From IMG/VR virus record IMGVR_UViG_3300047548_000098, positions 1 through 39,631 of that record: a stretch of DNA of 39,631 nucleotides; one strand, written 5' to 3'. Each line of letters starts with the position of its first letter. Position 1 is the first letter of the stretch. Positions 23-19,117 of the stretch are shown here, piece after piece. Made by a program: the position numbers and the translations under genes. A model generated the notes under the pieces. The model saw only the letters and a program-made list of their open reading frames with translations. It was not told the origin of the DNA and did no database searches. The stretch is from a virus.

Positions 23-397
23 ATGGCAGCCCCAAACTTACTCGCGCTTACTACCGGCTTAGGTAAAACAGCATACGCCACGCCGTCAACCACGGGAGCG
101 ACAACGCTGCTGTCTAATCCTGCTGGGTCTAACAAGGTGTTTAAGGTAAACCAGATTGTGGCTGCCAACGTAAACGGAACTTCCGCAGTGGACTGCACGG
201 TAACAATTAACTCTGCAGAGGCCGGTGGTGGCACAGCGTTTCCGATTGCTTCCACCATTGCTGTCCCGGCAGACGCCTCGCTGATCGTAACCGACAAGAC
301 GACCGCTATCTATCTGGAAGAAGACCGCAGCATCGTAGTGACATCTGGCACGGCAAACGGAATTACGTACTCTGCCTCGTATGAGGAGCTGTCATAA
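23..397 (+). CDS. Small virion structural protein, putative
   Basis: This 124-residue protein has no signal peptide or membrane segment. It is rich in Thr, Ala, Val and Ser with alternating hydrophobic positions, which suggests an all-beta fold. The ATG at 23 follows an AAGGA ribosome binding site at 12-16. It opens the late-gene run and sits directly upstream of the tail-appendage block. Size, composition and position fit a decoration or tail-associated protein of the kind common in aquatic phages, but I recognise no diagnostic motif. A structural role is inferred from context; the exact role is unknown. Confidence 0.6.
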   Translation: MAAPNLLALTTGLGKTAYATPSTTGATTLLSNPAGSNKVFKVNQIVAANVNGTSAVDCTVTINSAEAGGGTAFPIASTIAVPADASLIVTDKTTAIYLEEDRSIVVTSGTANGITYSASYEELS

Positions 398-399
398 AA

Positions 400-951
400 A
401 TGACAGTTGCATACCTATACAAGATAACAAATCTTGTGAACGGAATGCTGTATATAGGCGTGTCCAAAAACCCAAGGGCGCGCATGAATGCGCATGCCTG
501 CCAGACAATAAAAACAAAAGCAGCAATAAAAAATGCAATATTTAAATATGGTCGAGATAACTTCAAGTTAGAAGTAATCTGTAAGGCTGAACAAGACTAT
601 TGTTATGAATTGGAACGCAAGGCAATCGTTTCTTACAAAACCATTCTTCCTCATGGATATAACATATGTGAAGGCGGAAGAGGCGCAAAAGGTCTGTACG
701 GCGATGCTAATGGTATGTATGGAAAAAGAGGAGAGCTTCATCCAAATTTTGGAAAGCCGGGTCACAATACCGGTAGAAAGCACACTGAAGAGGCCAGAAA
801 AAAAATGTCTGAAGCTCGCAAAAATAGACAGTTCTCTGAAGAGACAAAACAAAAACTTCGTGAAAGCGCTATAAAACGTTGGGCCGATTTAGAAAAAAGA
901 CAAAAGTTAATTGATTCCGGTTTTGGTTCCGGAAAGCGTCGTAAGGAGTAA
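400..951 (+). CDS. Free-standing GIY-YIG homing endonuclease with NUMOD3 motifs
   Basis: The N-terminus (residues ~4-25) carries the GIY-YIG signature in the form LYKITN...LYIGVSK, followed by an Arg in PRARMNAH, all typical of the nuclease core (~1-95). Residues ~97-160 hold NUMOD3 DNA-binding modules (GMYGKRGELHPNFGKPG, then GRKHTEEARKKMSEARK and a second S/A-R-K helix). Family members cut DNA to spread their own gene. There is no intron or split gene around it, so it is free-standing, inserted between a structural gene and the first RCC1 gene. It is visibly AT-richer than the flanking structural genes, which suggests recent acquisition. The stop at 949-951 is 4 bases before the next ATG, and the downstream ribosome binding site lies inside its 3' end. 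Confidence 0.9.
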   Translation: MTVAYLYKITNLVNGMLYIGVSKNPRARMNAHACQTIKTKAAIKNAIFKYGRDNFKLEVICKAEQDYCYELERKAIVSYKTILPHGYNICEGGRGAKGLYGDANGMYGKRGELHPNFGKPGHNTGRKHTEEARKKMSEARKNRQFSEETKQKLRESAIKRWADLEKRQKLIDSGFGSGKRRKE

Positions 952-955
952 CGCC

Positions 956-2083
956 ATGAGCATGCGCTACAAAGGCGGCTTCATACAGGCATTTTTTGAC
1001 CCGTTGCAACCGGGCACGCCGGAACCTGCGTTATTTACGTGGGGTATAAACCAAGCCGGACAACTTGGTCAGAACGATAGGGTGTATAAATCATCCCCAA
1101 CACAAGTTGGATCAGCGACTTGGGCAACTATTTTTCTTAGTGGTAATTATAGTTCGCTTGCCATAAGTTCAAACGGCTCTTTGTGGTCGTGGGGGGAAAA
1201 TAATACTGGGCAGTTAGGCACTAATAATACTGTTTATAGGTCATCACCGGTTCAAATTGGTGCGCTCACTAATTGGGTTAGTGTAGTCGGAGGGTTGTCT
1301 GCATCGTCGGCAGCCATAAAATCAGACAATACATTGTGGACATGGGGTGGAAATAGCGGCGGTGAACTTGGTTTAAACGATAGAGCGTTCAGGTCTTCGC
1401 CCACTCAAGTCGGGAGCCAAACAAACTGGTCTTCTGTAAGATCGGGCCAAAACGGCACGGTCTCCATAAAAACCGATGGAACAATGTGGTCTTGGGGGGG
1501 CGGAAGTTACGGTCAGTTGGGTCAAGGCAACGTTATTCATCGGTCTTCACCGGTTCAGATTGGCGCTTTAGCTACATGGAAAAACGTATCCGGCGGTGTG
1601 TTTAACTTTACAGCGACTCGAACCGATGGAACAATGTGGTCTTGGGGGCTTAATAGTTTTGGTGAATTGGGTATAAATATTTCAGGCGGATCACGATCTT
1701 CACCGGTTCAGATTGGTGCTTTAACAACTTGGCTAGAAGTTAGTTCTAACGGATATACTTCGATTGCCAGAAGAAATGACGGGACTATTTGGTCTTGGGG
1801 TCAAAATCAGTTTGGTCAATTAGGGCAAAATGACACTGTAAGAAGATCTTCACCGGTTCAAATTGGTACGCAAACAGATTGGTCAAAAATTTCGTGTGGC
1901 TATTGGAATGGAGCTGCTATTAAATCTAACGGCACACTTTGGGTGTGGGGTCAGAATAGTTTTGGCCAACTTGGACAAAAAAATACTATTTATAGATCAT
2001 CTCCAGTTCAGGTCGGCGCGTTATCAACTTGGCTGACAGTATCTGCTGGAAAGTATTCAACTGCAGCAATCCTAAACACATAA
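956..2083 (+). CDS. RCC1-repeat beta-propeller protein A, putative tail appendage or adhesin
   Basis: The 375 residues hold seven tandem RCC1-type repeats of about 50 residues from ~residue 30 to the end. Each has a W(S/T)WG...GQLG core followed by RSSPVQIGAL and a conserved Trp. Seven repeats are what a closed RCC1 propeller needs. The N-terminus reads MSMRYKGGFI, which matches the start of the third paralogue at 5505 (MSTRFPGGFI) position for position and probably anchors it to the virion. I chose the ATG at 956, with AAGGAG just upstream at 943-948, over the TTG at 911 that lies inside the endonuclease gene. RCC1 proteins are best known as eukaryotic nucleotide-exchange factors, but propellers are general binding scaffolds; here a surface or receptor-binding role is inferred from the anchor and the neighbouring genes. 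The DNA is AT-richer than the structural genes. Confidence 0.8.
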   Translation: MSMRYKGGFIQAFFDPLQPGTPEPALFTWGINQAGQLGQNDRVYKSSPTQVGSATWATIFLSGNYSSLAISSNGSLWSWGENNTGQLGTNNTVYRSSPVQIGALTNWVSVVGGLSASSAAIKSDNTLWTWGGNSGGELGLNDRAFRSSPTQVGSQTNWSSVRSGQNGTVSIKTDGTMWSWGGGSYGQLGQGNVIHRSSPVQIGALATWKNVSGGVFNFTATRTDGTMWSWGLNSFGELGINISGGSRSSPVQIGALTTWLEVSSNGYTSIARRNDGTIWSWGQNQFGQLGQNDTVRRSSPVQIGTQTDWSKISCGYWNGAAIKSNGTLWVWGQNSFGQLGQKNTIYRSSPVQVGALSTWLTVSAGKYSTAAILNT

Positions 2084-2093
2084 GGAACACGTC

Positions 2094-3257
2094 ATGGCAC
2101 AGTGGAAACAATACTCTGGCGTGTGGACCAGACAGTCTCAGATGCAAGCAGCCGGTGCAGCTAATTGGCCGGGTGTGGTTATTGGCAATACGTTGTTTAG
2201 CTGGGGGTTTAACACCGATGGACAATTAGGGCAAAACAACCTTGTTTATTTATCATCCCCTGTTCAAGTCGGCGCGTTGACAAACTGGAACAATATTGCG
2301 TCTGGAAATTATAGCACTGTTGCAACAAAAACAGACGGGACAATTTGGTCGTGGGGGTCAAACGGTAGCGGGATATTAGGTCAAAATGATAATGTCAAAA
2401 GATCGTCCCCAGTACAAATTGGCGCATTAGCAACATGGCTTGGTGTTTCTTGCGGTGCATATTTTACAATGGCCACGAAAACTAACGGTGCATTATGGTC
2501 TTGGGGCAACAATGCTAATGGTCAATTAGGAAATAATAGTATTGCAAACGCATCATCCCCAGTTCAAGTCGGTGCATTAACGACATGGATTAATGCTGAA
2601 TGTTTACAGACAGCGACTCTAGCCATTAAAACTGACGGTACATTATGGGCTTGGGGCAATAATGGTAATGGTCAATTAGGTGACAACACTACTATAAATA
2701 GATCGTCCCCAGTACAAATTGGAGCATTAACAACATGGTCTAACATTGCAGGCGGCCAAAATCATGCAATAATGTTAAAGGCAGATGGTACTTTATGGGG
2801 TAGCGGAAACAATATATATGGCCAACTTGGTCAAAATAGCGTCGTATATAAATCATCGCCAACTCAAGTTGGATCATTAACAACATGGTCAAAAGCCGCC
2901 TGCGGTCTAAGTCATACAGTATCCATAAAAACAGATGGAACTTTATGGGCATGGGGGCGAAATAACAGCGGTCAATTAGGGGATAACACTATTGCATATA
3001 GATCATCCCCAGTACAAATTGGAGCATTAACAACGTGGTCTAAAGTGGGGTGTTCTCAAAATACAACTTTAGCTATAAAAACTGATGGTGCGTTATGGGC
3101 ATGGGGTGCTAACACCGGAGGTCAGTTGGGTCAAAGCAATACTACAAACAAATCATCACCTGTTCAGGTTGGTTTGCTTACTAGCTGGTCCAATATCGCA
3201 AGAGGCCCAATTGCAGGGCATACTATAGTTACTCAAACTGCGTACGTGCCCGGTTAA
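2094..3257 (+). CDS. RCC1-repeat beta-propeller protein B, putative tail appendage or adhesin
   Basis: This 387-residue paralogue of the preceding gene also has seven RCC1-type repeats (W-S/A-WG...GQLG...SSPVQxGALTTW), running from ~residue 32 to ~375. Its N-terminal anchor differs: GVWTRQSQMQAA...WPG, which resembles the second half of the anchor of paralogue C (GVWTLEQAGYY...WP). The ATG at 2094 is preceded by AAGGA overlapping the end of protein A. Many repeats are near-identical in DNA as well as protein, so the three genes could recombine with one another. The N-terminal anchor and clustering suggest a virion-attached binding protein; no enzymatic motif is visible. Confidence 0.8.
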   Translation: MAQWKQYSGVWTRQSQMQAAGAANWPGVVIGNTLFSWGFNTDGQLGQNNLVYLSSPVQVGALTNWNNIASGNYSTVATKTDGTIWSWGSNGSGILGQNDNVKRSSPVQIGALATWLGVSCGAYFTMATKTNGALWSWGNNANGQLGNNSIANASSPVQVGALTTWINAECLQTATLAIKTDGTLWAWGNNGNGQLGDNTTINRSSPVQIGALTTWSNIAGGQNHAIMLKADGTLWGSGNNIYGQLGQNSVVYKSSPTQVGSLTTWSKAACGLSHTVSIKTDGTLWAWGRNNSGQLGDNTIAYRSSPVQIGALTTWSKVGCSQNTTLAIKTDGALWAWGANTGGQLGQSNTTNKSSPVQVGLLTSWSNIARGPIAGHTIVTQTAYVPG

Positions 3258-3291: not shown

Positions 3292-5061
3292 ATGAAAAAC
3301 ATCTACTTCCTATCCGGATTGCCGCGTTCCGGCAGCACAGTTCTCGCGGCCATTCTTAACCAGCATCCAAGTCTGCATGCGTCGGCTACGTCCGGCCTGT
3401 TAGACATTCTGGTTGGCACCCTACGCGCTTGGGCGGACGCTATGTCTGTTCAGGCGCAGCCAGATAAAGAGGCCGCAGAGAAGGAGATCCAAAAGATTCT
3501 CCGCAATATCTGCGAGACTAAGTACGAGCACATTGATAAGCCAGTCATCCTTGATAAAGCGCGTGGTTGGGCGTCAGACGTAAACATTCGCACGATGGCC
3601 ATGGTGCTGGGTCACAAGCCTAAGATTGTGGCGACCGTTCGTAACATCCCTGACTGCGCGGCGTCATTTGTACGGGTAGCAAAACCTGAAGATGAGAACG
3701 AATTCTGTCGTGATTCTGAGCTTATTAACCATCTCAAAGAGTCATATCAAACCCTAGAGACTGGCTATTCATTTGCCCCTGAGTGCATCCTGTGCGTGGA
3801 CTACGACGAACTAATTGCCGATCCGATTGCACAATTGCGCCGGGTAGAAGAGTTTCTGGAGCTTGAACCGTTTGACGGGTACGACGTTACTAAGATCGAC
3901 GGCACCAGTTTGAAAGAGCTTGACGAGGAAGTCTGGCAGGTTAAAGGCTTGCATGACATTAAGCCTGAGCTAAAGCGTTACTCCAACTCTGCGGACACCA
4001 AACAACTGCTCGGTCGGTCATACGATCAGTTCCTGCAGCCACGCTTCTGGCTTGGCGAAAAGGTATCAAGTCGTCCGATCCACAAGCTGGACATGCAGCT
4101 CGCTGCTGGTCTGATGGGTAACTTTGAAGAAGGCTGGAAGCTCGCACAAGAGATCGAGCGCGAAGAGCCTTGGAATAACCGAGCTGCGTTTAATCGTGGT
4201 TGGTATCGGATGTGGAATGGCAACCTTCTGGCCGGATCTCAGGATATGTTCCGTGGCCGCATCGAAAAGGTTTACGGCAATGAGCCGCCTAAAGTGCCGA
4301 CTCCAATGTGGGACGGCGAGTCTAAAGGCGTGATCTTGCTTAACCTTGAAGGTGGGTTTGGCGATCAGATCCACGGCGCTGGGTTTATCCGCTACATTGT
4401 AGACAAGGGCTGTCAGGTTATTGTTGCCTGCTCTGGTCAGCTTGCCACACTGTTCCGCGATATCCCGGGCGTTCTGGCTGTGGTGCAGCACGAGGCTATG
4501 TTTGGTGTCGTGCATGACTTCTGGGTGCCAAGTATGTCCGCCGTGCTGCCGTTAAAGCTCGAATACAAAGACGTACGCGGTGGCGCTTACATCAGCAAGC
4601 CTGACGTACCGAAAGGCAAAAAGAAACGCATTGGGTTACGTTGGCAGGGCAACCCCCAGTTTGAGCACGAGCAACACCGACTGTTCCCGCCGCAGCGTTT
4701 CTTTGATGCAGTGGGTGGGAGCGACGCCGAATACGTTTCCCTGCAACGGGATGAGGGCGCAGAGAGCCGCCCGTACTGGGTCAAAGAAGTTCCTCTCAAC
4801 TACTGGGAAGAGACTCGTGCGGCAATTGCGTCATGCGATCTAGTGATTACATCATGCACCTCTGTAGCCCACCTATCGGCGGCCATGGGTGTGCCAACAT
4901 GGATTATCGTGCCTGTTCTACCGTACTACCTGTGGGCAAAACCCGGATGCTCGACCGAATGGTACGATAGCGTTAAACTGTTCCGACAGCAGGTTCACGG
5001 CGATTGGGACCATCCTATGAAACAAGTAGCTGAACAACTTAAGGAGTTTATAAATGGCTGA
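3292..5061 (+). CDS. Sulfotransferase-glycosyltransferase fusion protein
   Basis: This 589-residue protein has two enzyme-like halves. Residues ~1-250 are a PAPS-dependent sulfotransferase: the 5'-phosphosulfate loop reads SGLPRSGSTVLAAIL at ~6-20, and VATVRNIPDCAASFVRV at ~115-131 matches the 3'-phosphate-binding R..P....S motif. After a short helical TPR-like linker (~265-330), residues ~350-585 resemble GT-B enzymes of the TPR-linked/GT9 type: GGFGDQIHGAGFIRYI, then GLRWQGNP with a basic HRLFPPQRFF segment, then CDLVITSCTSVAHLSAAMGV. The predicted activity is transfer of sulfate and of a sugar to a glycan or protein. It lies between RCC1 genes B and C, so its substrate could be host surface glycans or virion adhesins; that is inference. 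The next gene overlaps its end by 8 bases. Confidence 0.85.
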   Translation: MKNIYFLSGLPRSGSTVLAAILNQHPSLHASATSGLLDILVGTLRAWADAMSVQAQPDKEAAEKEIQKILRNICETKYEHIDKPVILDKARGWASDVNIRTMAMVLGHKPKIVATVRNIPDCAASFVRVAKPEDENEFCRDSELINHLKESYQTLETGYSFAPECILCVDYDELIADPIAQLRRVEEFLELEPFDGYDVTKIDGTSLKELDEEVWQVKGLHDIKPELKRYSNSADTKQLLGRSYDQFLQPRFWLGEKVSSRPIHKLDMQLAAGLMGNFEEGWKLAQEIEREEPWNNRAAFNRGWYRMWNGNLLAGSQDMFRGRIEKVYGNEPPKVPTPMWDGESKGVILLNLEGGFGDQIHGAGFIRYIVDKGCQVIVACSGQLATLFRDIPGVLAVVQHEAMFGVVHDFWVPSMSAVLPLKLEYKDVRGGAYISKPDVPKGKKKRIGLRWQGNPQFEHEQHRLFPPQRFFDAVGGSDAEYVSLQRDEGAESRPYWVKEVPLNYWEETRAAIASCDLVITSCTSVAHLSAAMGVPTWIIVPVLPYYLWAKPGCSTEWYDSVKLFRQQVHGDWDHPMKQVAEQLKEFING

Positions 5062-5494
5062 CGTTATTGCAACAGGTTTTTGGATCCGCGCCAAGGGCGA
5101 TCAAGTTCTGGACGTATGGGATTACAAACCGTCACAAGGCATTCTTGACACACAAGGTGGCTGGCGCGAAGCCATCCAGATCACGCCGGAAGTTAATCCG
5201 ATGCGTGAATATATCAATGGGCACGTCATTGATCTGGCACCGACCCCGGCTGAGATTCGCTGGCAGATTGGCTACCTGACCGTGGACGATCGCAAGGGTA
5301 TGCTGATTTCAGAGGCTAACAACACATATCAGCAAGTCATCACGACCGAGATGAACAAAGAAACTGACCCGGATCCTGATTCGCATATGGATATGGCAGT
5401 TGTGCAGGCGGCTAATACGGTTTACACAGAGCGCGTTGCACAGATCAACGCCTGTACCACCCAAGAAGAACTCGACGCAATCTGGAACCTGTAA
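5054..5494 (+). CDS. Uncharacterised protein between the sulfotransferase and RCC1 gene C
   Basis: I do not recognise this 146-residue protein. The first ~70 residues are rich in Trp, Asp and Pro (for example FWIRAKGDQVLDVWDYKP), and the last ~70 look helical. It has no signal peptide, membrane segment or cysteine motif. The start overlaps the end of the sulfotransferase gene by 8 bases, with AAGGAG upstream at 5041-5046, so the two are probably translationally coupled. The stop is 10 bases before RCC1 gene C. Position next to a tail-appendage gene would suit a fibre-assembly chaperone, but no sequence motif supports this. Confidence 0.7.
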   Translation: MADVIATGFWIRAKGDQVLDVWDYKPSQGILDTQGGWREAIQITPEVNPMREYINGHVIDLAPTPAEIRWQIGYLTVDDRKGMLISEANNTYQQVITTEMNKETDPDPDSHMDMAVVQAANTVYTERVAQINACTTQEELDAIWNL

Positions 5495-5504
5495 GGGGTA
5501 GGCT

Positions 5505-6734
5505 ATGTCTACAAGATTTCCCGGAGGTTTTATCAATCGCTCCGCCCCTGTAGTTGTTGGTCCAAGCGCAACCTCCGGCGGCTCTGCCCCGGGGGTGTGG
5601 ACGCTCGAACAGGCCGGGTACTATCGAAGTAAAAGTCAATGGCCGATACCGCCGTCATATGAAATATACGCGTGGGGATATAACTCGGCCTATCAAGTTG
5701 GTGATGGCACGACAGTAGCAAGATCGTCACCGGTAATGATTGGAACGGTACCTTTTACACATATTGCGGCTGGTTTCGGTAGCGCTGGTTTAACTCAAGA
5801 CGGCAAGGTATATAACTGGGGTAGAAATTCGGATGGAGCTTTTGGCACAAATAATAGAACAACTAGATCAACACCGACATTAAATAATGTTTTCATGGGT
5901 GTAAAATCAGCAGCATCACAAGCAAATACAATGGCTTTTGTGAAATATGATGGCACGTTATGGACTTGCGGTGAAAATACGCTTGGTCAACTTGGCGTGA
6001 GCGACACAGTAAATAGATCTTCTCCTGTTCAAATTGGTGTTTTAACGACATGGTCAACGGTATCCGGAAATTATTTTTCTTTTCTGGCAACCAAATCCGA
6101 TGGAACGCTCTGGGGTTGGGGATATAATAATAAAGGAGAATTAGGAGTTGGAGACGAAATCGCAAGATCATCCCCTGTTCAAATTGGCGCCGATACAAAC
6201 TGGTCAAAAGTAGCATGTGGGAGTTCTTCATTAGCAATAAAAACAGATGGCACGCTATGGTCTTGGGGCAATAACGGCGATGGTCAACTTGGTAACAATA
6301 CAACTGCTAATAGTTCGTCCCCAGCTCAAGTTGGAGCGTTGACAAATTGGAGTGAAGTTTCCACATGTGGGAACGTATCAAGTGGAAGTTGTGTTGCTAT
6401 TAAAACAAACAATACAGCTTGGGCTTGGGGCGTTAATGGTTCTGGTCAATTGGGATTAAACTCAATTGTCAGTAAGTCGTCGCCAACCCAAATTGGCGCA
6501 TTAACGATATGGGAAAAAGCCGAAAATAACGATACTACATCAAGTTGTTTTTTAAGAACCGATGGGACTATTTGGTCTTGCGGTGCGAATAATTTCGGGC
6601 AACTTGGTCAAAACGTTGAAAGTACGGTGAATAGATCTTCTCCTGTCCAAATCGGAACTGCTACAAATTGGGTAGATATTTTTACTTCAGGTTCAACTGC
6701 TAATATGTTTGCGGTATATGAAAAGTTTATTTAA
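5505..6734 (+). CDS. RCC1-repeat beta-propeller protein C, putative tail appendage or adhesin
   Basis: This 409-residue protein has the longest N-terminal anchor of the three (~residues 1-52): MSTRFPGGFI, a Gly/Ser/Pro linker, then APGVWTLEQAGYYRSKSQWP. That last motif is a hallmark of tail-appendage proteins in many aquatic phages, as I recall the family. Seven RCC1 repeats follow (~53-405); the first two are divergent (RSSPVMIG, RSTPTLNN), the other five canonical (RSSPVQIG). The ATG at 5505 follows AAGGGG at 5493-5498. The anchor combines elements found separately in paralogues A (GGFI) and B (GVWT...WP), which points to domain shuffling. A virion-attached binding role is inferred. Confidence 0.8.
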   Translation: MSTRFPGGFINRSAPVVVGPSATSGGSAPGVWTLEQAGYYRSKSQWPIPPSYEIYAWGYNSAYQVGDGTTVARSSPVMIGTVPFTHIAAGFGSAGLTQDGKVYNWGRNSDGAFGTNNRTTRSTPTLNNVFMGVKSAASQANTMAFVKYDGTLWTCGENTLGQLGVSDTVNRSSPVQIGVLTTWSTVSGNYFSFLATKSDGTLWGWGYNNKGELGVGDEIARSSPVQIGADTNWSKVACGSSSLAIKTDGTLWSWGNNGDGQLGNNTTANSSSPAQVGALTNWSEVSTCGNVSSGSCVAIKTNNTAWAWGVNGSGQLGLNSIVSKSSPTQIGALTIWEKAENNDTTSSCFLRTDGTIWSCGANNFGQLGQNVESTVNRSSPVQIGTATNWVDIFTSGSTANMFAVYEKFI

Positions 6735-6744
6735 CTCCTACGAC

Positions 6745-7410
6745 ATGGTGCCGTCTAAGGCATATATCATTCGTGTTGTAGGAAACGAAAACTCTGAAGC
6801 CTTAGCCAAGCGCTGCGCAGACTCTTGTGAAAAAGTCGAGCAGCCTTGGGAATACTGGGATGCGTATAATGGTCACGTTAACCCAGTGCAACCGCCAGAA
6901 CACCATCATCCGGCGCTGAACCTCATCAAGATCACGGACCACTACCTGACTCGTGGTGAGGTTGCTTGTGCGTTGTCACACATCAGTCTCTGGGTTAAGT
7001 GCGTAGAAGAAGACAAGCCGTTGGTGATTCTTGAGCATGACAGCGTTATGTTGCAGCCCTATACGCAGCATGCTGTGTTCAATTCGATCTGTTACCTTGG
7101 GTCTTACGAACAAGTCAAGCAGGGCTGGCAGGTGCTACCAACGCCTCCGCACGCATCCGAAGGCCCGAACTACCACTTCATTTGCCGCGCACATGCCTAC
7201 GCCATTGATCCTGCCGTAGCAAAGAACATGATCGCTCATGTAATTAAATATGGTATCAATGCGCCGCTGGACATTCTTTTGCGTGCAGACATTTTCCCGA
7301 TCCATCAGATGGGCGTTTTCGCGTATGATGAGAAGGGTTCTGAGACAACTATTCTTGGACGACCAAAACACGGGCGCAGAGCATTGCCCAACATAGATTT
7401 ATCTGACTAA
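6745..7410 (+). CDS. Glycosyltransferase, family 25 type
   Basis: About 221 residues from the ATG at 6745. The pattern is that of the GT25/LPS glycosyltransferase family: an N-terminal strand AYIIRVVGNENSEALAKRC, a WEYWDAYNG segment, then RGEVACALSHISLWVKCVEE and PLVILEHD, which corresponds to the G(E)..C..SH...w and (I/L)LE(D/H)D signature. A C-terminal HFICRAHAYAIDP stretch matches the family's conserved end region. Family members add hexoses to lipopolysaccharide or protein-linked glycans. A longer version could begin at ATG 6718 or TTG 6709, overlapping the RCC1 gene; none of these starts has a good ribosome binding site, so the start is uncertain. Confidence 0.75.
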   Translation: MVPSKAYIIRVVGNENSEALAKRCADSCEKVEQPWEYWDAYNGHVNPVQPPEHHHPALNLIKITDHYLTRGEVACALSHISLWVKCVEEDKPLVILEHDSVMLQPYTQHAVFNSICYLGSYEQVKQGWQVLPTPPHASEGPNYHFICRAHAYAIDPAVAKNMIAHVIKYGINAPLDILLRADIFPIHQMGVFAYDEKGSETTILGRPKHGRRALPNIDLSD

Positions 7411-7419
7411 GGGGAAGTC

Positions 7420-8004
7420 ATGCAATTTAATACGGTGTTCCACGATTACACCGCAATGAGCGTTAACTGGCTCGTTCAACAATACGGTATTCCAAAAACG
7501 GTCATTGAGATCGGCGTGTTTGAGGGTCACACAACCTTTAACATGACCGCAATGCTGGCCCAGCAGTACAAAGACTACAAGCACTATGCAATTGACCCGC
7601 ACGCCGAATCGGACGATATCGAAGAAGATGTGGTGGCGAAGGCAGGCGATACATTCCGCGCTAATCTTGCTGAGTTTGAACTCAAAGACCACATCGAATA
7701 CATCAACGATTATTCTTGGAATGGCTTGATTGATCTGTATAAACGCGGCGTCAAGGCTGATCTAATCTATATCGACGGAGACCATCGCGCCGCTACCGTC
7801 ATGGAAGACCTGATCCTGTCGTTCAAACTGATCGACAAGGGCGGCATTATCCTGTGTGATGACTGCGTGGCTTGGTATAACGAGAAGCTGCAGAACACGC
7901 CCAAGCTGGCCGTAGATGCGTTTATCCATTGCTACTGGGACAAGATTGACATGTTGCGCCTACCGCACGGCGCTCAGCTTGCTTTCGTTAAGAAATGCGA
8001 CTAA
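7420..8004 (+). CDS. Class I SAM-dependent methyltransferase
   Basis: This 194-residue protein has a Rossmann methyltransferase pattern. Motif I is VIEIGVFEGHTTFN (~26-39), the acidic end of strand 2 is in AIDPHAE (~58-64), and ADLIYIDGDHRAATVMEDL (~113-131) followed by GGIILCDDC resembles the Methyltransf_24 and cephalosporin-hydroxylase-like group. These enzymes often O-methylate sugars. The ATG at 7420 follows AAGGGGAAG. It sits between two glycosyltransferase genes and its end overlaps the next gene by 10 bases, so it is probably part of one glycan-tailoring operon. The substrate is unknown. Confidence 0.8.
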   Translation: MQFNTVFHDYTAMSVNWLVQQYGIPKTVIEIGVFEGHTTFNMTAMLAQQYKDYKHYAIDPHAESDDIEEDVVAKAGDTFRANLAEFELKDHIEYINDYSWNGLIDLYKRGVKADLIYIDGDHRAATVMEDLILSFKLIDKGGIILCDDCVAWYNEKLQNTPKLAVDAFIHCYWDKIDMLRLPHGAQLAFVKKCD

Positions 8005-8789
8005 CTGTAATTCTACGGACTTGCCTTAAGTCCAAGCTGGACGAAAATATAGCTGGTGAGTTTGTACGAATATGCGGCAAAGACCGCAGGGCAATGGTGC
8101 TAAAGTGCTTAAAATCCCTGTGCATCTCTATTAACAAGTCTTCCGCAGAAGTAAGCCTGCATATTCTGGACGACAACAGCGATGCCGGCTTCGTTGCTGA
8201 TATGCACGAAGTGGTAAAGCATTGCAAGGCTGATGTACAGATAACTACGCTACAGGCTCCGGAAGGCGTGCGGTCATTTAACCACTCGGCCTATGAGCAG
8301 TTCAGGTTAGCGTCAGAAGTGGACGGGTTGGTCTATTCCGTAGAGGATGACTACCTGCACGACGAGGATGCCATAGAGTCCATGCTAACGGCATACGCAA
8401 ATTTAAGTCACAGGTTTAAATTAGACAAGGTTGTGATTTTCCCATTTGACTGCCCATTCCGATACGAGGCTGGGCGCGAAGAACCGACTGTGTTATTGCA
8501 CGACGGGAAACGGTACTGGAGGCAGGTCGGCCACACGACCAATACATTCCTAACCCATGGAAAGTATATAAAAGAGCATTTCGATGTGTATTCCAAGCTG
8601 GCTTTAGAGTACCCAAATGTCAACGAAGCTCACACAATTAACCGTTTATACCGTGGTTTTAACAACATGAACGGGGTTCTGACCGTATTTAATCCAGTCC
8701 CATCAGTCGCTTACCACTTGTCATATGTCGAGCCAGTTGCTATAAAGACGGAAGCGCTTTGCTGGAATAACATCTGGAATAGCTTATGA
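7995..8789 (+). CDS. Glycosyltransferase, family 2-like (GT-A fold)
   Basis: This 264-residue protein begins MRLTVILRTCL, the first strand of a GT-A nucleotide-sugar fold. It continues with LHILDDNSDAGF at ~52-63 (the family's DD/DN position) and GLVYSVEDDYLHDEDA at ~111-126, where EDD takes the place of the DXD metal motif. Later residues fit an acceptor domain. Family members transfer sugars from UDP- or GDP-sugars to glycans. Its start overlaps the methyltransferase stop by 10 bases and its stop overlaps the holin start (ATGA), so it links the glycan block to the lysis cassette in one transcript. Confidence 0.75.
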   Translation: MRLTVILRTCLKSKLDENIAGEFVRICGKDRRAMVLKCLKSLCISINKSSAEVSLHILDDNSDAGFVADMHEVVKHCKADVQITTLQAPEGVRSFNHSAYEQFRLASEVDGLVYSVEDDYLHDEDAIESMLTAYANLSHRFKLDKVVIFPFDCPFRYEAGREEPTVLLHDGKRYWRQVGHTTNTFLTHGKYIKEHFDVYSKLALEYPNVNEAHTINRLYRGFNNMNGVLTVFNPVPSVAYHLSYVEPVAIKTEALCWNNIWNSL

Positions 8790-8992
8790 TGTACTTATAC
8801 CCAAACTGGAAAGAGATTGCCCGCCGTAGCTGGAGCCTGCGCTTCATTATTTTGGCGGGTATACTGTCTGGTCTTGAGGTAATTCTGCCATTCTTCTCAG
8901 ATGAAATCCCTCGTAATCTCTTTGCTGTTCTTAGCTTTGTGGCTGTATCTGCTGCTTTCGTGGCACGCCTAGTGGCTCAGAAAGGCATATAA
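8786..8992 (+). CDS. Putative holin, two membrane segments
   Basis: This 68-residue protein has a short charged N-terminus (YPNWKEIARRSWSLR), a first hydrophobic segment at ~18-37 and a second at ~45-62. This is a small class-II-like holin layout and resembles the phage holin family that starts with a Trp/Arg-rich N-terminus. It overlaps the preceding gene by ATGA and the endolysin gene by one base (TAATG). Immediate neighbourship with a GH24 endolysin and spanins supports the holin call; the sequence alone only shows a small double-spanning membrane protein. Confidence 0.75.
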   Translation: MMYLYPNWKEIARRSWSLRFIILAGILSGLEVILPFFSDEIPRNLFAVLSFVAVSAAFVARLVAQKGI

Positions 8993-12878: not shown

Positions 12879-13319
12879 ATGTATTCAATAGATAGTAAGC
12901 GTAACAAGCTGTCCATGCAGGAAATCATGATCCATGGGTTCAGTGAAGGTAAGCCCGGTGGTGTCGAATTGGCTAAGCAAATTGGTATGCTTATCGTAGA
13001 ACTACAGCAACCCAACTCTGAGGCAGTCCAGTTTGGTAACACGGTGTTTATCGGGCACTACGACAAGGATCGTACAACGGTGTTTTATTGGGTGCTTAAC
13101 ATCGACACTATCAAAAACTATAAGGGTAACTCAGAACTATATGCGCGTTACCTCATTAAAAGTGGCGTACAAAACGCCTTGACACGGTATACTTCAGAGG
13201 CACTTGGTAGTAACATCTTCAAGTATCTGGAGAAGTTAAAGCTTGGTAAGGCCAAGACGGTCAAAGCCAAGGATGGCTTCTATGAAACCTACTTTAAGTT
13301 GGCGACGAAGAAAAAATGA
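12879..13319 (+). CDS. Uncharacterised late protein
   Basis: I do not recognise this 146-residue basic alpha/beta protein. It has a central hydrophobic pattern (NTVFIGHYDKDRTTVFYWVL) and a Lys-rich C-terminus (KLKLGKAKTVKAKDGFYE...). There is no signal peptide or membrane segment. The ATG at 12879 follows AAGGGA, and the stop overlaps the start of the giant virion gene (ATGA), so it is likely translated together with it. A role in virion assembly or as a chaperone for the giant protein is possible from position only. Confidence 0.7.
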   Translation: MYSIDSKRNKLSMQEIMIHGFSEGKPGGVELAKQIGMLIVELQQPNSEAVQFGNTVFIGHYDKDRTTVFYWVLNIDTIKNYKGNSELYARYLIKSGVQNALTRYTSEALGSNIFKYLEKLKLGKAKTVKAKDGFYETYFKLATKKK

Positions 13320-16300
13320 TCCATCCGCTGCTATCCCCTCCGCGCATTACCGTCGTCCAGATGTCCATGGCGCAGGCGCGTCTGTGGTCGCTAGATCATC
13401 CGGTAGGAAGCCCTACCCGCGGTGCGCCGTATGGCGAATACCTTAAAGGTAACTTTTTTGATTCTGTAGGGCAGTTTTTTAGCGAAGTAGGTAAAGGGTT
13501 CGAAAAGCTCGGCCAAGAGGTTCTAAAACCTGTAGGTAAGGCCGTTGAGAAGATCGGCCAAGGCATTGCTAATGACCCACTGACGTTTGTAGCTACGGTA
13601 GCGGCTATGGCTACCGGTAATCCTTGGGCTATCCCGCTTATTACTGCAGCATCTACAGCGGCCAAGGGTGGTAATTTTGAAGATGTATTGAAAGCCACAG
13701 CTATTTCGGCTGCTACTACCTACATTGCGGTAGAAGGTACACAATGGATTCAAAACGGCGTGCAGCAAGCTGGCACTGCGCTGGGTTTTGAAGTAGGTGC
13801 TACAACGGCTAAGGTAATTGCCAACGTAACAGCATTCTCTGCTTCTGGCGCACTTAGCGCAGCCGCATCTGGTAAGGATATAGCCCAAGGTGCCCTTATG
13901 GGTGGGGCACAGGCAGCTTTATCCCTAGGTATTAATGCCGCACTGAACGAGATTCCGGGGTTTAGCGACCTAGGTGGGACTAAAGAAGCCCCAAATTATG
14001 TAGGCCGTGCTATTCAAGGCACGTTACAAACTACCCTAGCTGGCGTTGCCGGTGCAGCGGTTGCGGGTAAAGACCTCACTACGGCGGCAGCAAACAGCAT
14101 AATTCGTGGGGTAATGGATGGTGTTACCGACGGTGTTAACTATGTAATTAAGACAGTTTCAAACTACTTTGAACCCACTAATATTGATATGCCGGATGTC
14201 ATTAAAGACATGCCTCCGGAAGTTAAGGCTATTGCAGCCGATGCTCTTACACAGGTCGTAGCTAGCGCCGTGTTTACTGGAGGTAAGGCACCGATTAACC
14301 TGACCGGTTCCTTCATGAAAGGCGCGTCATCGGCTATTAACAAGTATGTTACTAGCGATTTTGTTAACGATGTTAAAACGCTGACCGCAAACCTCACGTC
14401 GTTTAACGCCGATCCCGCAGTGCAGGAGTTTACTAAAGCCTCGCAAGTACGTGATGCCGTATCAGAAGAATACGCATTATTGGCAGACGAAATTGCCCCA
14501 TTGTTCGAGGAACGGGACGAGGCTTACGCCAAGGCCAAAGAAGCCGCGGATGCTTACAACGCCAACCGCACGGAAGAAAATAAACAGGCAGCGATTGCCG
14601 CCGGTAATGCGTATGCAGAAAAAGAGGCAGAAGTTAACCGTGTTTATAGCGGGGAAACTGTCCAATATGGTGCTAACGAATGGAATGGCGGGGAAACTCT
14701 AAGCTTAAAGGATGCCGCTGCACGGGCGCAAGACGAGCTAGACCAGATTAAACAAGGCGTAGTATCTTCTGACGAATACGGCAATACGTATACTCGCGAA
14801 GCTACTGCTGAAGAATTAGCAGCGGCTCAAGCTAAAGTAGACCAATATACTACTGCGTACCACAATACATACGCTTACCGCCTAACCCAGATAGCAGATC
14901 GTTACGCTATTGAAGCAGACAAAGTTAAGCTTTTAGAACCTAAATATGCTGAGCTATACAAAGAACAAGTCGGCAATGCCGCTGACCCAATTAACGCTAA
15001 AACTAACGAGCTTATTCAGGGCATAGCCGATGAAGTTGTTGCAGACCTAGATCCGGGCTGGAAAGAAGAAGAATACAAACGTCTTTATGGGTACGGTGAC
15101 GGGGTAAGTGGATCTATTAACTACCTTCAAGAAGGTTTGGAAGAAGGTCGATACACCAATCTGGACGATGCAGAGATTGCACTTGAAGTAGCCAAAGTGC
15201 GTCGTATGGATGAAGTTGCACGTACTCAAGGGTATAGCAGTGCTAACCAGTTGGCCCGAGTCGATAAGGGTGCGTATAACAAGCTGTCAAACTTGGTCGA
15301 AACCGAATACGGTACTAATTTAACACGGCTTGAAGAAGCGTCAATCCAAGAAATCTTCCGTGGGGAAACTACCAAGAACCTAAGCGACTTCGTACCTAAA
15401 TACGATGGTAAGGGTGTGCTACAGGTAACGGTCGAAAGTGCTCCGTATTCCGAAGAAAACCACCCCCCAGCAAGCATATATTCGCTACCTAAAGTTGGGG
15501 CTAAATTTGCTAATGAAGAAGAAATTGCCGCGGGCAGCGCATGGCTAATTAGCACTAGCGACGGTAAGGGCGTATGGATTACTGGCAACAATGACGCTCG
15601 TAGCGTTTATGACCCGACTACCGGGGGTATGGTAGAGGTACAAGTCGGCGAAGCAGTCGAATACCAAGATGTTACTGAGCTAGATGCTTGGAATATGGTC
15701 AACACGTTCAACGCTATGAACGAAGAAGCACTGGTTAAAGTACTACCAACCGCTGCCGAATCAGTCGAATTTGTTCATAACATTTTAGATGCTGCCAAAG
15801 AAACGGGTAGTCCTGCAGTTATTAATGGTACGGCGATGGTTCTTAAGGGGAGTACTGAACTCGTCCGTGCCTACAACGACTTGGCAATTATGGCGGGTAA
15901 AGACCCACGTAATGATGCCGTACGTACGACATTAGATAGCATGACTGGCATGATTACCGCCAGCACTACGCAAGAATACAAGGACGACCTTAAGAACATT
16001 AAGAAGTTAATTGATAAGTCTGAGGGTACAGGGGTTGTCGGTGCAATTCTTGAGGGTGCTACTAAGTATCCCGGCACGTTTGCCATGGAGTACATTGGCA
16101 CTGAGCTTGTTCAAGAAGGTATCCAGTGGGCACTGGGCGGCGGTGTAGGTAAAGCCGTATCTTGGGGCGCTAAGGGATTAGGGTACGTCCAAGACGCAGT
16201 TAAAGCCTATACGCGTACAGCGGCACAGGGCACGTTTGTAGCTTCAAATGTAGCCGAAGCTGCTGGTGGTGAAGCTGGCAACGCATACGACCAAACCTAT

Positions 16301-19117
16301 AAGCTAGCCCTACAGCAAGGCAAATCGGAGTCGCAAGCCCATGAGCTTGCCATGACCAACGCGTTTAGCACCGGTTTAGTTGCAGCAACAGTGAATTTGG
16401 CTACCTTGGGTATCGGTCTTGATAAGATGCCTGATATTTTGTATGGTGGCAAAGAAGGTAAAGAAGGCGCTTCTAAACTATTTACTAGCTTACTCGACGG
16501 TATTAAAGATGGGTCTATCAAAGTAGGCAAAGAAACTGTTGGTGAAGCACTGGAAGAAGGGCTTACCGCTGCATGGCTTGAAGGGCAGCTATATAAGATT
16601 GACCCGAACCGGGATATACCCAAAGAGATTGCCGAAGCCGCTACCATGGGGGCTATCGCTGGAGGTGGTGTTGCCGGAGCGCTTACCGGTGCTGACGTAT
16701 CGGGCGATTTTATATATAACCTGACAAAAGATACGGCACCGATTCTGAAAGATCTTATTACTGGTGGGCCTAGCACTGTTGGGTATGCGTTTTCTACCCC
16801 CGGCACTGTTGGAGGCCCGTCGTTAGATGTTGCCACCGCTAAGGTTGAATCTGGTACTGACTTTATTATGGACTCCGTAAAAGCCGCTAAAGCCGTTACG
16901 GATACTAAAGAAGAAACAGTACGTCAGTTGTATATCGACATGACGGGGCATGAGCCGACTGCAGCAGAAATGGCTAAAGCTAAGGCTGACTTAGCTGGTG
17001 GAAAAATAATCCGTGAAATTGCCGCGGAAATCTACAGCGATCCGTATGTACAGATCAAAAACTTGTACCAAACAGTACTGGATCGCGCTCCTACTAATGA
17101 AGAGTTGGTGCGAAGTATTGGGGATATTAAATCCGGTGTAACCGATATAGGCATCTTAACTAATCAGGTTTACAACTCGACCGAAGCACGTACCGGACGT
17201 GTCGAATCGTTATTTAAAGACGTTCTTGGCCGTGAAGCTACACAAGAAGAACTTAACTACCGTTTAGCGGAACTAGAACGCGGGCGTAGTTTCGAAGAAA
17301 TGAAATCAGAGTTTTTTAACTCGGAAGAACGCCTTAGCAAAATAAGTAACGAAGCTTTAGTTGATACTCTGTATAGGAATATCTTAAACCGAGATGCCGA
17401 AGCTGCTGAGCGCCAACAACAGTTGGACGAGCTTAATAGCGGGCGTAAAACTGCTGGACAGTTAGAAAGCGAACTAAAAGCATCTAGCGAAAACATTATC
17501 CAAGATACCCTTGCTACGTTACAAGAGTTAGGTATTACTGACAAAACACAGCAATTAGAAATTCTTAGTGGGTATTTTGGTGACGCTGGCAAAGATAACG
17601 CTACGCTGAACAAACTACGGGAAGAAGCTAACGCAGCTGCAGACGCTGCACGTGCTCAAGACGAGGCTACTACTGATCTTGGCGAAGTATATGAAGCTGC
17701 ACAAAAATTAGGCTTGGGGGACATAACCCTAGCAGATTTGCAACCGTATACCGGCGATGTAAAAGAATCTGAATCCCTGCAGAAGTTCCGTACAGATAAT
17801 GCAGCACGAGCTGCAGAAGCTGCTATCGACGCAGTTTATGGTAAGGACTACGTAGCTCCTGAAGATCGCACTGCCGATTTGGTTAACCGTATAGTTACTG
17901 ACCAAAATACTACGTTTGATAGTCTGGTTAACGACGTACTGCAACCACAAAAACAAGTAGGGGATTTGTACAGACAGGTAATTGGGCTGGAAATGCCCAT
18001 GGAAAACCTGCTTACCCGTACCGCACAAATTACTAGCGGTGAGCTAAATTACCAACAGCTTAAGTCATTATTTGAAGGCACTACTAAGAACCAAGTTGCT
18101 GATACCTACCAGCGGTATCTTGGACGACTTCCTACCCAACAAGAGTTGGACTCCTATGTTAATGCGATTAACTCTGGGTATACCACGGTGCAAGGTTTGG
18201 CTACGGAGCTGCAAAGATCTCCAGAAGCCAAGACATACGCGACAAATAGCCAGCAACTACAGTCCCAAGTAGCCCAAGCATATAAAAATGCTACCGGGTT
18301 GGATATGCCCGCAGATAGACTTGCTTTGCGTACCGGTGAAATCGCTAGCGGCCAAAATACTTTGGCTGGGTACAGCTCCGCCGTAGCTAATAGCACTCAA
18401 GCACAAGTAGCGCAAGCGTACAAAGCGGCTACTGGCGTAGACATCTCTGCTGACAAACTAGCGCAACGTGTGTCTGAAATTAATAGCGGTCAAATGTCTT
18501 TAGCGGACTATCAAACTGCAGTAGCTAATAGTACTCGTGCGCAAGTGTCACAGGCATACCAGCAAGCAACAGGTACTGTACCCGATGCCGGCACGTTAGA
18601 ACAACTAACCAGCAGCGTTAAAGAAGGTACCTCGACCATTACGGATATCGCTACTCAGTACGCCCCAGCCACAGATACAGGTGTACCGGGCGGGCAAAGT
18701 GGTGGTGGCGGTGGTGGTGGCGGTGGTGATGGCGGTGGGTACAGCGGCCCTACCCCAGAAGAACTTGAACAAGCTAAAAAAGCTAAAAATTACAATAACT
18801 TAGTAAACTTTGTAACGCAGGTAGCACCTGCTGCGGTACAACAAGTGGAGGTTAAAACTCCGCCTCCGGAACCCATTGAGTACTTTTACAACTTCGAAGA
18901 CATTTTTGCTAACCCGAAACAGTCAGCGTTCTATAAGTCACCCTATGAATCTACAGCGGGTGCGTCTGGCGATTTTGGCGACCGATACAGTGCTAAACAT
19001 CAAGCTGAGCTTGCATCTGGTAAAGTAAAAGGGTCTAATGAGTATGTTTACAACGTCGGCGGTGCTGTAGAATACACCGATATGGACGAGATAATCCGCA
19101 TTTTGCGAGGTAAATAA
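13316..19117 (+). CDS. Giant internal virion protein with DUF4214 repeats
   Basis: This 1,933-residue protein begins with an amphipathic, Gly/Ala-rich region (~45-300) that could interact with membranes (for example PLTFVATVAAMATGNPWAIP). Long helical and coiled-coil stretches follow (~370-560). Two groups of DUF4214-like repeats lie at ~1200-1395 and ~1540-1770 (pattern LY.D..GREPT..EL...I..L..G). A run of glycines at ~1795-1807 precedes the C-terminal tail. DUF4214 modules occur in surface and secreted proteins. Size and location suit an ejection protein that enters the cell envelope with the DNA. The start codon overlaps the preceding stop. The function is inferred from layout, not from a catalytic motif. 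Confidence 0.7.
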   Translation: MIHPLLSPPRITVVQMSMAQARLWSLDHPVGSPTRGAPYGEYLKGNFFDSVGQFFSEVGKGFEKLGQEVLKPVGKAVEKIGQGIANDPLTFVATVAAMATGNPWAIPLITAASTAAKGGNFEDVLKATAISAATTYIAVEGTQWIQNGVQQAGTALGFEVGATTAKVIANVTAFSASGALSAAASGKDIAQGALMGGAQAALSLGINAALNEIPGFSDLGGTKEAPNYVGRAIQGTLQTTLAGVAGAAVAGKDLTTAAANSIIRGVMDGVTDGVNYVIKTVSNYFEPTNIDMPDVIKDMPPEVKAIAADALTQVVASAVFTGGKAPINLTGSFMKGASSAINKYVTSDFVNDVKTLTANLTSFNADPAVQEFTKASQVRDAVSEEYALLADEIAPLFEERDEAYAKAKEAADAYNANRTEENKQAAIAAGNAYAEKEAEVNRVYSGETVQYGANEWNGGETLSLKDAAARAQDELDQIKQGVVSSDEYGNTYTREATAEELAAAQAKVDQYTTAYHNTYAYRLTQIADRYAIEADKVKLLEPKYAELYKEQVGNAADPINAKTNELIQGIADEVVADLDPGWKEEEYKRLYGYGDGVSGSINYLQEGLEEGRYTNLDDAEIALEVAKVRRMDEVARTQGYSSANQLARVDKGAYNKLSNLVETEYGTNLTRLEEASIQEIFRGETTKNLSDFVPKYDGKGVLQVTVESAPYSEENHPPASIYSLPKVGAKFANEEEIAAGSAWLISTSDGKGVWITGNNDARSVYDPTTGGMVEVQVGEAVEYQDVTELDAWNMVNTFNAMNEEALVKVLPTAAESVEFVHNILDAAKETGSPAVINGTAMVLKGSTELVRAYNDLAIMAGKDPRNDAVRTTLDSMTGMITASTTQEYKDDLKNIKKLIDKSEGTGVVGAILEGATKYPGTFAMEYIGTELVQEGIQWALGGGVGKAVSWGAKGLGYVQDAVKAYTRTAAQGTFVASNVAEAAGGEAGNAYDQTYKLALQQGKSESQAHELAMTNAFSTGLVAATVNLATLGIGLDKMPDILYGGKEGKEGASKLFTSLLDGIKDGSIKVGKETVGEALEEGLTAAWLEGQLYKIDPNRDIPKEIAEAATMGAIAGGGVAGALTGADVSGDFIYNLTKDTAPILKDLITGGPSTVGYAFSTPGTVGGPSLDVATAKVESGTDFIMDSVKAAKAVTDTKEETVRQLYIDMTGHEPTAAEMAKAKADLAGGKIIREIAAEIYSDPYVQIKNLYQTVLDRAPTNEELVRSIGDIKSGVTDIGILTNQVYNSTEARTGRVESLFKDVLGREATQEELNYRLAELERGRSFEEMKSEFFNSEERLSKISNEALVDTLYRNILNRDAEAAERQQQLDELNSGRKTAGQLESELKASSENIIQDTLATLQELGITDKTQQLEILSGYFGDAGKDNATLNKLREEANAAADAARAQDEATTDLGEVYEAAQKLGLGDITLADLQPYTGDVKESESLQKFRTDNAARAAEAAIDAVYGKDYVAPEDRTADLVNRIVTDQNTTFDSLVNDVLQPQKQVGDLYRQVIGLEMPMENLLTRTAQITSGELNYQQLKSLFEGTTKNQVADTYQRYLGRLPTQQELDSYVNAINSGYTTVQGLATELQRSPEAKTYATNSQQLQSQVAQAYKNATGLDMPADRLALRTGEIASGQNTLAGYSSAVANSTQAQVAQAYKAATGVDISADKLAQRVSEINSGQMSLADYQTAVANSTRAQVSQAYQQATGTVPDAGTLEQLTSSVKEGTSTITDIATQYAPATDTGVPGGQSGGGGGGGGGDGGGYSGPTPEELEQAKKAKNYNNLVNFVTQVAPAAVQQVEVKTPPPEPIEYFYNFEDIFANPKQSAFYKSPYESTAGASGDFGDRYSAKHQAELASGKVKGSNEYVYNVGGAVEYTDMDEIIRILRGK

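Follow-up and report, generated by a model that had tools for sequence, protein, structure and literature searches.

A phage-encoded fusion of sulfotransferase and TPR-glycosyltransferase is linked to RCC1 genes and may modify putative tail appendages

The stretch of DNA analyzed here (the window; IMG/VR virus record IMGVR_UViG_3300047548_000098, 39,631 bases) encodes a single protein in which a sulfotransferase, TPR-like helices and a GT-B glycosyltransferase follow one another, surrounded by genes for RCC1 beta-propeller proteins (Table 1). That this protein represents a bifunctional class of enzyme, sulfotransferase plus GT-B, we regard as very probable. From comparisons of sequence, structure and gene order we lean toward a soluble enzyme acting on RCC1 appendages before the virion is assembled, glycosylating and probably also sulfating them; for RCC1 as the acceptor, the odds appear roughly even. 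The openly licensed literature yielded no paper on a phage sulfotransferase-glycosyltransferase fusion and none on a phage APS kinase occurring with a sulfotransferase.

Table 1. Features of the RCC1 block and of the fused protein in the window
Feature	Position	Strand	Basis or remark
Short conserved protein, cluster c5	23..397	+	No Pfam hit; c5 in 51/112 sources
GIY-YIG homing endonuclease-like, NUMOD3 motif	400-951		Follows the c5 gene, precedes the first RCC1 gene
RCC1 beta-propeller protein	911..2083	+	Pfam RCC1, E=3.4e-62
RCC1 beta-propeller protein, immediately 5' of the fused gene	2094..3257	+	Pfam RCC1, E=5.2e-73
Fused sulfotransferase - TPR - GT-B glycosyltransferase, 589 aa	3292..5061	+	Uninterrupted ORF, Pfam, AlphaFold2 model
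Sulfotransferase domain, residues 1-262	3292..4077	+	VIA-align to TPST1, Pfam Sulfotransfer_3
5'-phosphosulfate loop SGLPRSGST, residues 8-16	3313..3339	+	
3'-phosphate loop VRNIPDCAAS, residues 116-125	3637..3666	+	
TPR-like helices, residues 265-325	4084..4266	+	Four helices in the AlphaFold2 model
GT-B glycosyltransferase domain, residues 346-589	4327..5058	+	VIA-align to WaaC
SCTS motif, residues 521-524	4852..4863	+	Cys versus Asp of bacterial TPR-glycosyltransferases
Conserved 146-aa protein, cluster c2	5054..5494	+	8-base overlap with the fused gene
RCC1 beta-propeller protein	5505..6734	+	Pfam RCC1, E=6.4e-58
GT25-type glycosyltransferase	6709..7410	+	Pfam Glyco_transf_25, E=6.2e-16; in 59/100 set A loci
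Methyltransferase	7420..8004	+	Pfam Methyltransf_24, E=3.1e-17; in 27/100 set A loci
Probable GT2-type glycosyltransferase	7995..8789	+	Groups with cluster c16

An earlier note on this DNA had described the fusion and placed the gene between two RCC1 genes. The domain search and structure prediction it called for were run, and together they place both halves in one ORF. RCC1 genes do flank it on either side, with a third farther upstream, but the gene for a conserved 146-aa protein intervenes downstream. The window copy of this small protein has no Pfam and no PHROG family; a role as tail-fiber chaperone was considered and dropped as unproven, the best PDB match of its profile being weak (E=0.044). 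The GIY-YIG-like gene upstream forms cluster c34, common to eight sources. As for the probable GT2-type glycosyltransferase, the window protein itself has no Pfam hit, and a c16 member in locus L011 matches Glycos_transf_2 (E=3e-5). Endolysin and spanin-like genes come after it. A terminator-like hairpin (8831-8846) follows the block and counts as no evidence, since the scan gave fewer such sites than shuffles did.

For comparison, we used 100 distinct viral loci from two IMG/VR scans (set A), the first giving 52 relatives and a profile scan contributing the best 80 of 510; these are the nearest relatives of few queries. Set B consists of 47 loci, likewise nearest relatives, with relatives of the TPR-glycosyltransferase of the distant cyanophage S-SRM01. 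A third set of 80 loci, obtained with one tail-adaptor protein as query (adaptor set), served as comparison group; its contigs are often short, and zero counts there partly reflect missing DNA. The loci are mutually related, so that locus counts are not independent.

By its Pfam scores and PAPS loops, the first half of the protein is a predicted member of the PAPS-dependent sulfotransferase superfamily. It exceeds the cut-offs of Sulfotransfer_3 (64.6 bits, cut-off 27, E=2e-17, residues 6-194) and Sulfotransfer_1 (42.8 bits, cut-off 22, E=5.6e-11). Both loops stand as the earlier note had quoted them, with the residues that we take to bind PAPS (PRSG[ST]T in the 5' loop, Arg and Ser in the 3' loop) retained. 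P11, R12, S13, G14, S15 and T16 are invariant in the 77 distinct fused sequences that have residues there (78 examined), R117 and S125 in 78/78, while D88 and K89 are kept in 77/78 each. The best structural match of residues 1-262 was TPST1/TPST2 (TPST1 5wrj: Z 18.6, rmsd 3.8, 239 aligned by VIA-align), with a lead of about 2.5 over the next groups of sulfotransferases, the bacterial polyketide-type pathway domains (Z 16); Z was about 14 for heparan sulfotransferases and about 11-13 for cytosolic SULTs. The TPSTs, which are Golgi membrane enzymes, also share a profile alignment with this half. T33 there falls on the TPST catalytic Glu, presumably E99 of TPST2, and is Thr in 77/77 fused sequences; the window protein has the predicted fold of the TPSTs but not their catalytic Glu.

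The second half was modeled together with the first by AlphaFold2 (31 sequences; pLDDT 89.2, pTM 0.69). The profile of residues 265-325 matches TPR proteins, including the TPR domain of OGT (1w3b, E=3.7e-7). In the model, residues 346-589 adopt the two-domain GT-B fold of WaaC (2h1f: Z 16.1, rmsd 3.2, 230 aligned by VIA-align), with a Veillonella GT9 enzyme, WaaF and TibC (4rap, Z 14.9) as further matches, and homology to phage and bacterial TPR-glycosyltransferases is evident. A link to WaaC by sequence was sought and rejected: the profile hits were TPR proteins, with no GT9 enzyme among them, and structure is what ties this half to GT9. The Pfam Glyco_transf_9 score stayed below threshold (12.1 bits, cut-off 22). 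C522 in the SCTS motif, invariant in the 77 fused sequences with a residue there, replaces the Asp of a D-T motif near the donor site, which we take to be a conserved GT9 residue; the aligned phage TPR-glycosyltransferases have S-C-[ST] and the bacterial relatives D, except for the phage-like L055 from a proteobacterial MAG. The GT9/TPR-type domain recognized earlier is upheld in its GT-B fold, its TPR-like helices and its homologues, but not as a GT9 enzyme by Pfam. For either half, a fold shared in the model is no proof of function.

Ninety-two of the 100 set A loci encode the fusion; contig ends truncate five of the remainder, and the last three (L048-L050) have stand-alone glycosyltransferases. 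Glycosyltransferase motifs are essentially invariant among the 78 distinct fused sequences (window included). Eight pairs chosen from the 93 fused loci gave dN/dS values of 0.02-0.18 in each half, except that one half was saturated in one pair; both halves are under purifying selection. The loss of key PAPS or glycosyltransferase residues, which the earlier note had named as a point against its reading, occurred in part: PAPS residues are kept, and one typical residue per half is changed, invariantly rather than by degeneration. Because Thr (at the TPST Glu position) and Cys (at the GT9 Asp position) are fixed and not decayed, the alignments point to a change in chemistry or specificity and do not suggest loss. 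In L036 (6561-7343), L103, L109 and L066, a second member of the enzyme family is encoded close to the first.

The fused gene belongs to a mobile phage module. T4-type neck/tail-sheath-stabilizer genes lie beside the module in 12/101 sources and SU10-type adaptor genes in 46/101, never both, which indicates transfer between tail types. We considered and rejected a cellular origin for the fusion, since L054 alone was fused among the 11 genome_contigs loci. This locus, a 10-kb MAG contig, has phage-like gene order together with the fusion and RCC1; the other ten have neither.

RCC1 genes were found in the fetched DNA of 96/100 set A loci, at most 500 bases away in 89; three loci without them are cut by contig ends beside the gene (L031, L033, L092) and one is not (L068). 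Set B has RCC1 genes in 47/47 loci and additionally a separate sulfotransferase in 38. Only 3/80 loci of the adaptor set have RCC1, exactly the three with the fused gene, which are close relatives of one another. In a search of 50,697 phage records, the glycosyltransferase half matched five records representing four distinct phages, three of which (S-SRM01, AG-345-E08 and BUCT-ZZ01) also have the RCC1 proteins closest to those of the window. In the fourth, MW202512, the fetched stretch lacks an RCC1 gene, and this phage is absent from the RCC1 match list. Five distinct phages with the sulfotransferase only are missing from the list of RCC1 matches of the window; the RCC1 link is therefore with the TPR-glycosyltransferase and not with sulfotransferases generally. 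Several cyanophages and single-cell marine viruses have separate sulfotransferases, and the earlier statement that sulfation enzymes are rare in phages was too strong.

RCC1 proteins are putative tail appendages by their position in other phages. Their genes lie beside tail-fiber genes in BUCT-ZZ01 and S-SRM01, between such genes in LIBA6276 and after a baseplate gene in LIS04. The RCC1 match of Aphanizomenon phage Yong-DA lies among sugar-metabolism genes instead, and its counterparts in Jenst and PS6 have mostly unnamed neighbors. The window and L002 share 95% identity in the enzyme and 100% in the 146-aa protein, whereas their best RCC1 matches reach about 51-56%. In 248 pairs of loci whose enzymes are 80-97% identical, pairs that are not independent, median identity was 59% for RCC1 and 84% for the enzyme; in 239 of them RCC1 fell behind the enzyme by more than 10 points. 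As judged from these identities, this is the pattern of a putative diversifying binding protein with a constant enzyme serving it. Given a strong RCC1 link that is seen again in other phage lineages, we favor the adhesins among the two targets suggested earlier, adhesins or host surface. A Tyr at a fixed position of the RCC1 repeat was considered as acceptor site and dropped, as the residue count said nothing about an acceptor; it makes up 16% of 1533 set A repeats, below Asn with 33%, the comparison groups having 1 to 20 repeats each. A short N-terminal motif of the type GVWSL...WP is common to 52/378 RCC1 ORFs and nine non-RCC1 ORFs (L194:13499-15568 and others in further adaptor-set loci), and is perhaps a shared virion-anchoring piece.

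For catalysis, RCC1 as acceptor, the identity of the sugar, the order of the steps and the benefit to the phage, we infer the following scheme. The TPR region would hold the RCC1 propeller encoded next door, in the cytoplasm of the infected cell and before virion assembly, and the glycosyltransferase half would attach a sugar to it. The sulfotransferase half would then sulfate that sugar or a side chain, and the downstream GT25, GT2-like and methyltransferase products might extend and cap the glycan. The window itself has no APS kinase, ADP-heptose or UDP-galactopyranose mutase (UGM) gene, so PAPS and the sugar donor would have to come from the host. Relatives may supply donors themselves, PAPS by an APS kinase-like enzyme and sugars by ADP-heptose genes or UGM. 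Changed adhesion or virion shielding, for example, could be the benefit. S-SRM01 resembles the window in having TPR-glycosyltransferase, sulfotransferase and RCC1 genes in one block, but the two enzymes are separate genes there and the glycosyltransferase half is 27.6% identical.

The closest layout with a tested function is that of FlmG, the flagellin O-glycosyltransferase of Caulobacter crescentus, which combines TPR and GT-B parts and reaches its substrate via the TPR part (PMC7591256). As in the predicted phage enzyme, a soluble protein has its TPR part ahead of a GT-B domain. The likeness is one of layout: FlmG uses flagellin as substrate and pseudaminic acid as donor, and the cited part of that paper describes no sulfotransferase domain (PMC7591256). 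Virion glycosylation has already been reported for mycobacteriophages (Che8; Freeman et al. 2023, cited in PMC11256854), which leaves sulfation as the new element here. Phage glycosyltransferases place glycans on virion proteins in that system too, but the target is a capsid protein, and the passage concerned does not mention a sulfotransferase (PMC11256854).

Genes for sugar donors, which would serve the scheme above, also bear on a different target. Downstream of its fused gene, L003 encodes HldE domain II, a cupin, HldE domain I and HldD one after the other (L003:16170-18341). This is an apparent phage ADP-heptose pathway (HldE domain II, E=1e-48; HldE domain I, E=8e-32; HldD, E=1.6e-60), each match lying below the NCBIfam full-length cut-off. 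At least one ADP-heptose gene occurs in 14/100 set A loci, all three in 11/100, and UGM in 13/100, none of which has ADP-heptose genes too; both kinds number 0/80 in the adaptor loci. ADP-heptose genes thus stand beside some relatives of a gene whose product shares its fold with WaaC/WaaF and TibC. Known GT9 enzymes, WaaC among them, have LPS cores as their substrates, and GT25 and ADP-heptose genes are LPS-type functions, as would suit an enzyme that, with the adjoining glycosyltransferases, alters host LPS or capsule, for instance against superinfecting phages. Viral waaF and rfaE/hldE have indeed been read as lipopolysaccharide genes, in the part of the survey cited (PMC10653327). We nevertheless consider modification of the host surface unlikely: RCC1 and lysis genes surround the block, in which family searches named no membrane enzyme, the enzyme follows RCC1 genes across phage types, and FlmG, the TPR-glycosyltransferase with tested function, modifies a protein (PMC7591256, as far as cited).

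Somewhat less likely still is another virion protein as acceptor, such as the 146-aa protein or a capsid protein, with RCC1 a mere neighbor. In favor are the overlap of the 146-aa gene with the fused gene and the matches of its family HMM in 85/100 set A loci, and also MW202512, whose fetched stretch is free of RCC1 and has the TPR-glycosyltransferase gene near that for the major capsid protein. The 146-aa family was, however, found in 0/47 set B loci, where the RCC1 linkage persists.

An APS kinase-like gene (cluster c7) occurs in 42/100 set A loci, in 34/56 of those with at least 5 kb downstream and in 0/80 adaptor loci. It scores above the Pfam APS_kinase cut-off (30.8 bits, cut-off 21.1) and below that of the NCBIfam adenylyl-sulfate kinase model (29.8 bits, cut-off 127). 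For the kinase half, the 19 best matches of a PDB profile search were APS kinases or enzymes with that domain, as were the 30 best by VIA-align (best Z 17.7) if ATP sulfurylases that contain an APS kinase-type domain are included; Foldseek also ranked APS kinases best. The model is moderate (pLDDT 78.6) and weak in the C-terminal half, which resembles NMN adenylyltransferase and not ATP sulfurylase, so that a complete PAPS synthetase was rejected; some copies of the module have the kinase alone. L007:15279-16106 is an example with both halves, and its relatives in Stenotrophomonas, Clavibacter and Xanthomonas phages carry the annotations hypothetical, kinase or riboflavin biosynthesis. The NMN adenylyltransferase-like half, the occurrence of APS kinase-like genes in Stenotrophomonas phages whose fetched neighborhoods contain no sulfotransferase, TPR-glycosyltransferase or RCC1, and the listing of cysC as a viral sulfur-metabolism gene in the part cited (PMC10653327) would fit sulfotransferase, APS kinase-like and nucleotidyltransferase genes that serve sulfur or nucleotide (e.g., NAD) metabolism, a role that is improbable given the agreement of sequence and structure on APS kinases, the copies with the kinase alone, and the fused TPR-glycosyltransferase and RCC1 linkage that it leaves unaccounted for.

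Tentatively, and with more doubt than for the modification of RCC1 itself, we suggest that many environmental phages carry a transferable cassette for sulfated glycoprotein adhesins, in which the bifunctional enzyme would modify hypervariable virion RCC1 proteins and some phages would also make PAPS and ADP-heptose or UDP-galactofuranose. Part of the viral cysC-, waaF- and hldE-like "host-metabolism" genes may belong to such a virion-decoration cassette. If this is true, phages attach both sulfate and sugar to the proteins with which they bind their hosts. Adhesion specificity and the charge of the virion surface would be seen differently, viral sulfotransferase, cysC and hldE genes now read as auxiliary metabolic genes would gain a testable function, and assays would have a named enzyme as their object. 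BUCT-ZZ01, isolated on the laboratory cyanobacterium Synechococcus elongatus PCC 7942, has the glycosyltransferase-RCC1 pair, which makes the acceptor claim checkable in an isolated phage.

Elsewhere in the window lie two giant ORFs. That at 13316-19117 (1933 aa) has no PHROG match, and the C-terminal part of the 1932-aa protein encoded at 22679-28477 resembles the PHROG "DarB-like antirestriction" (E=2.3e-78).
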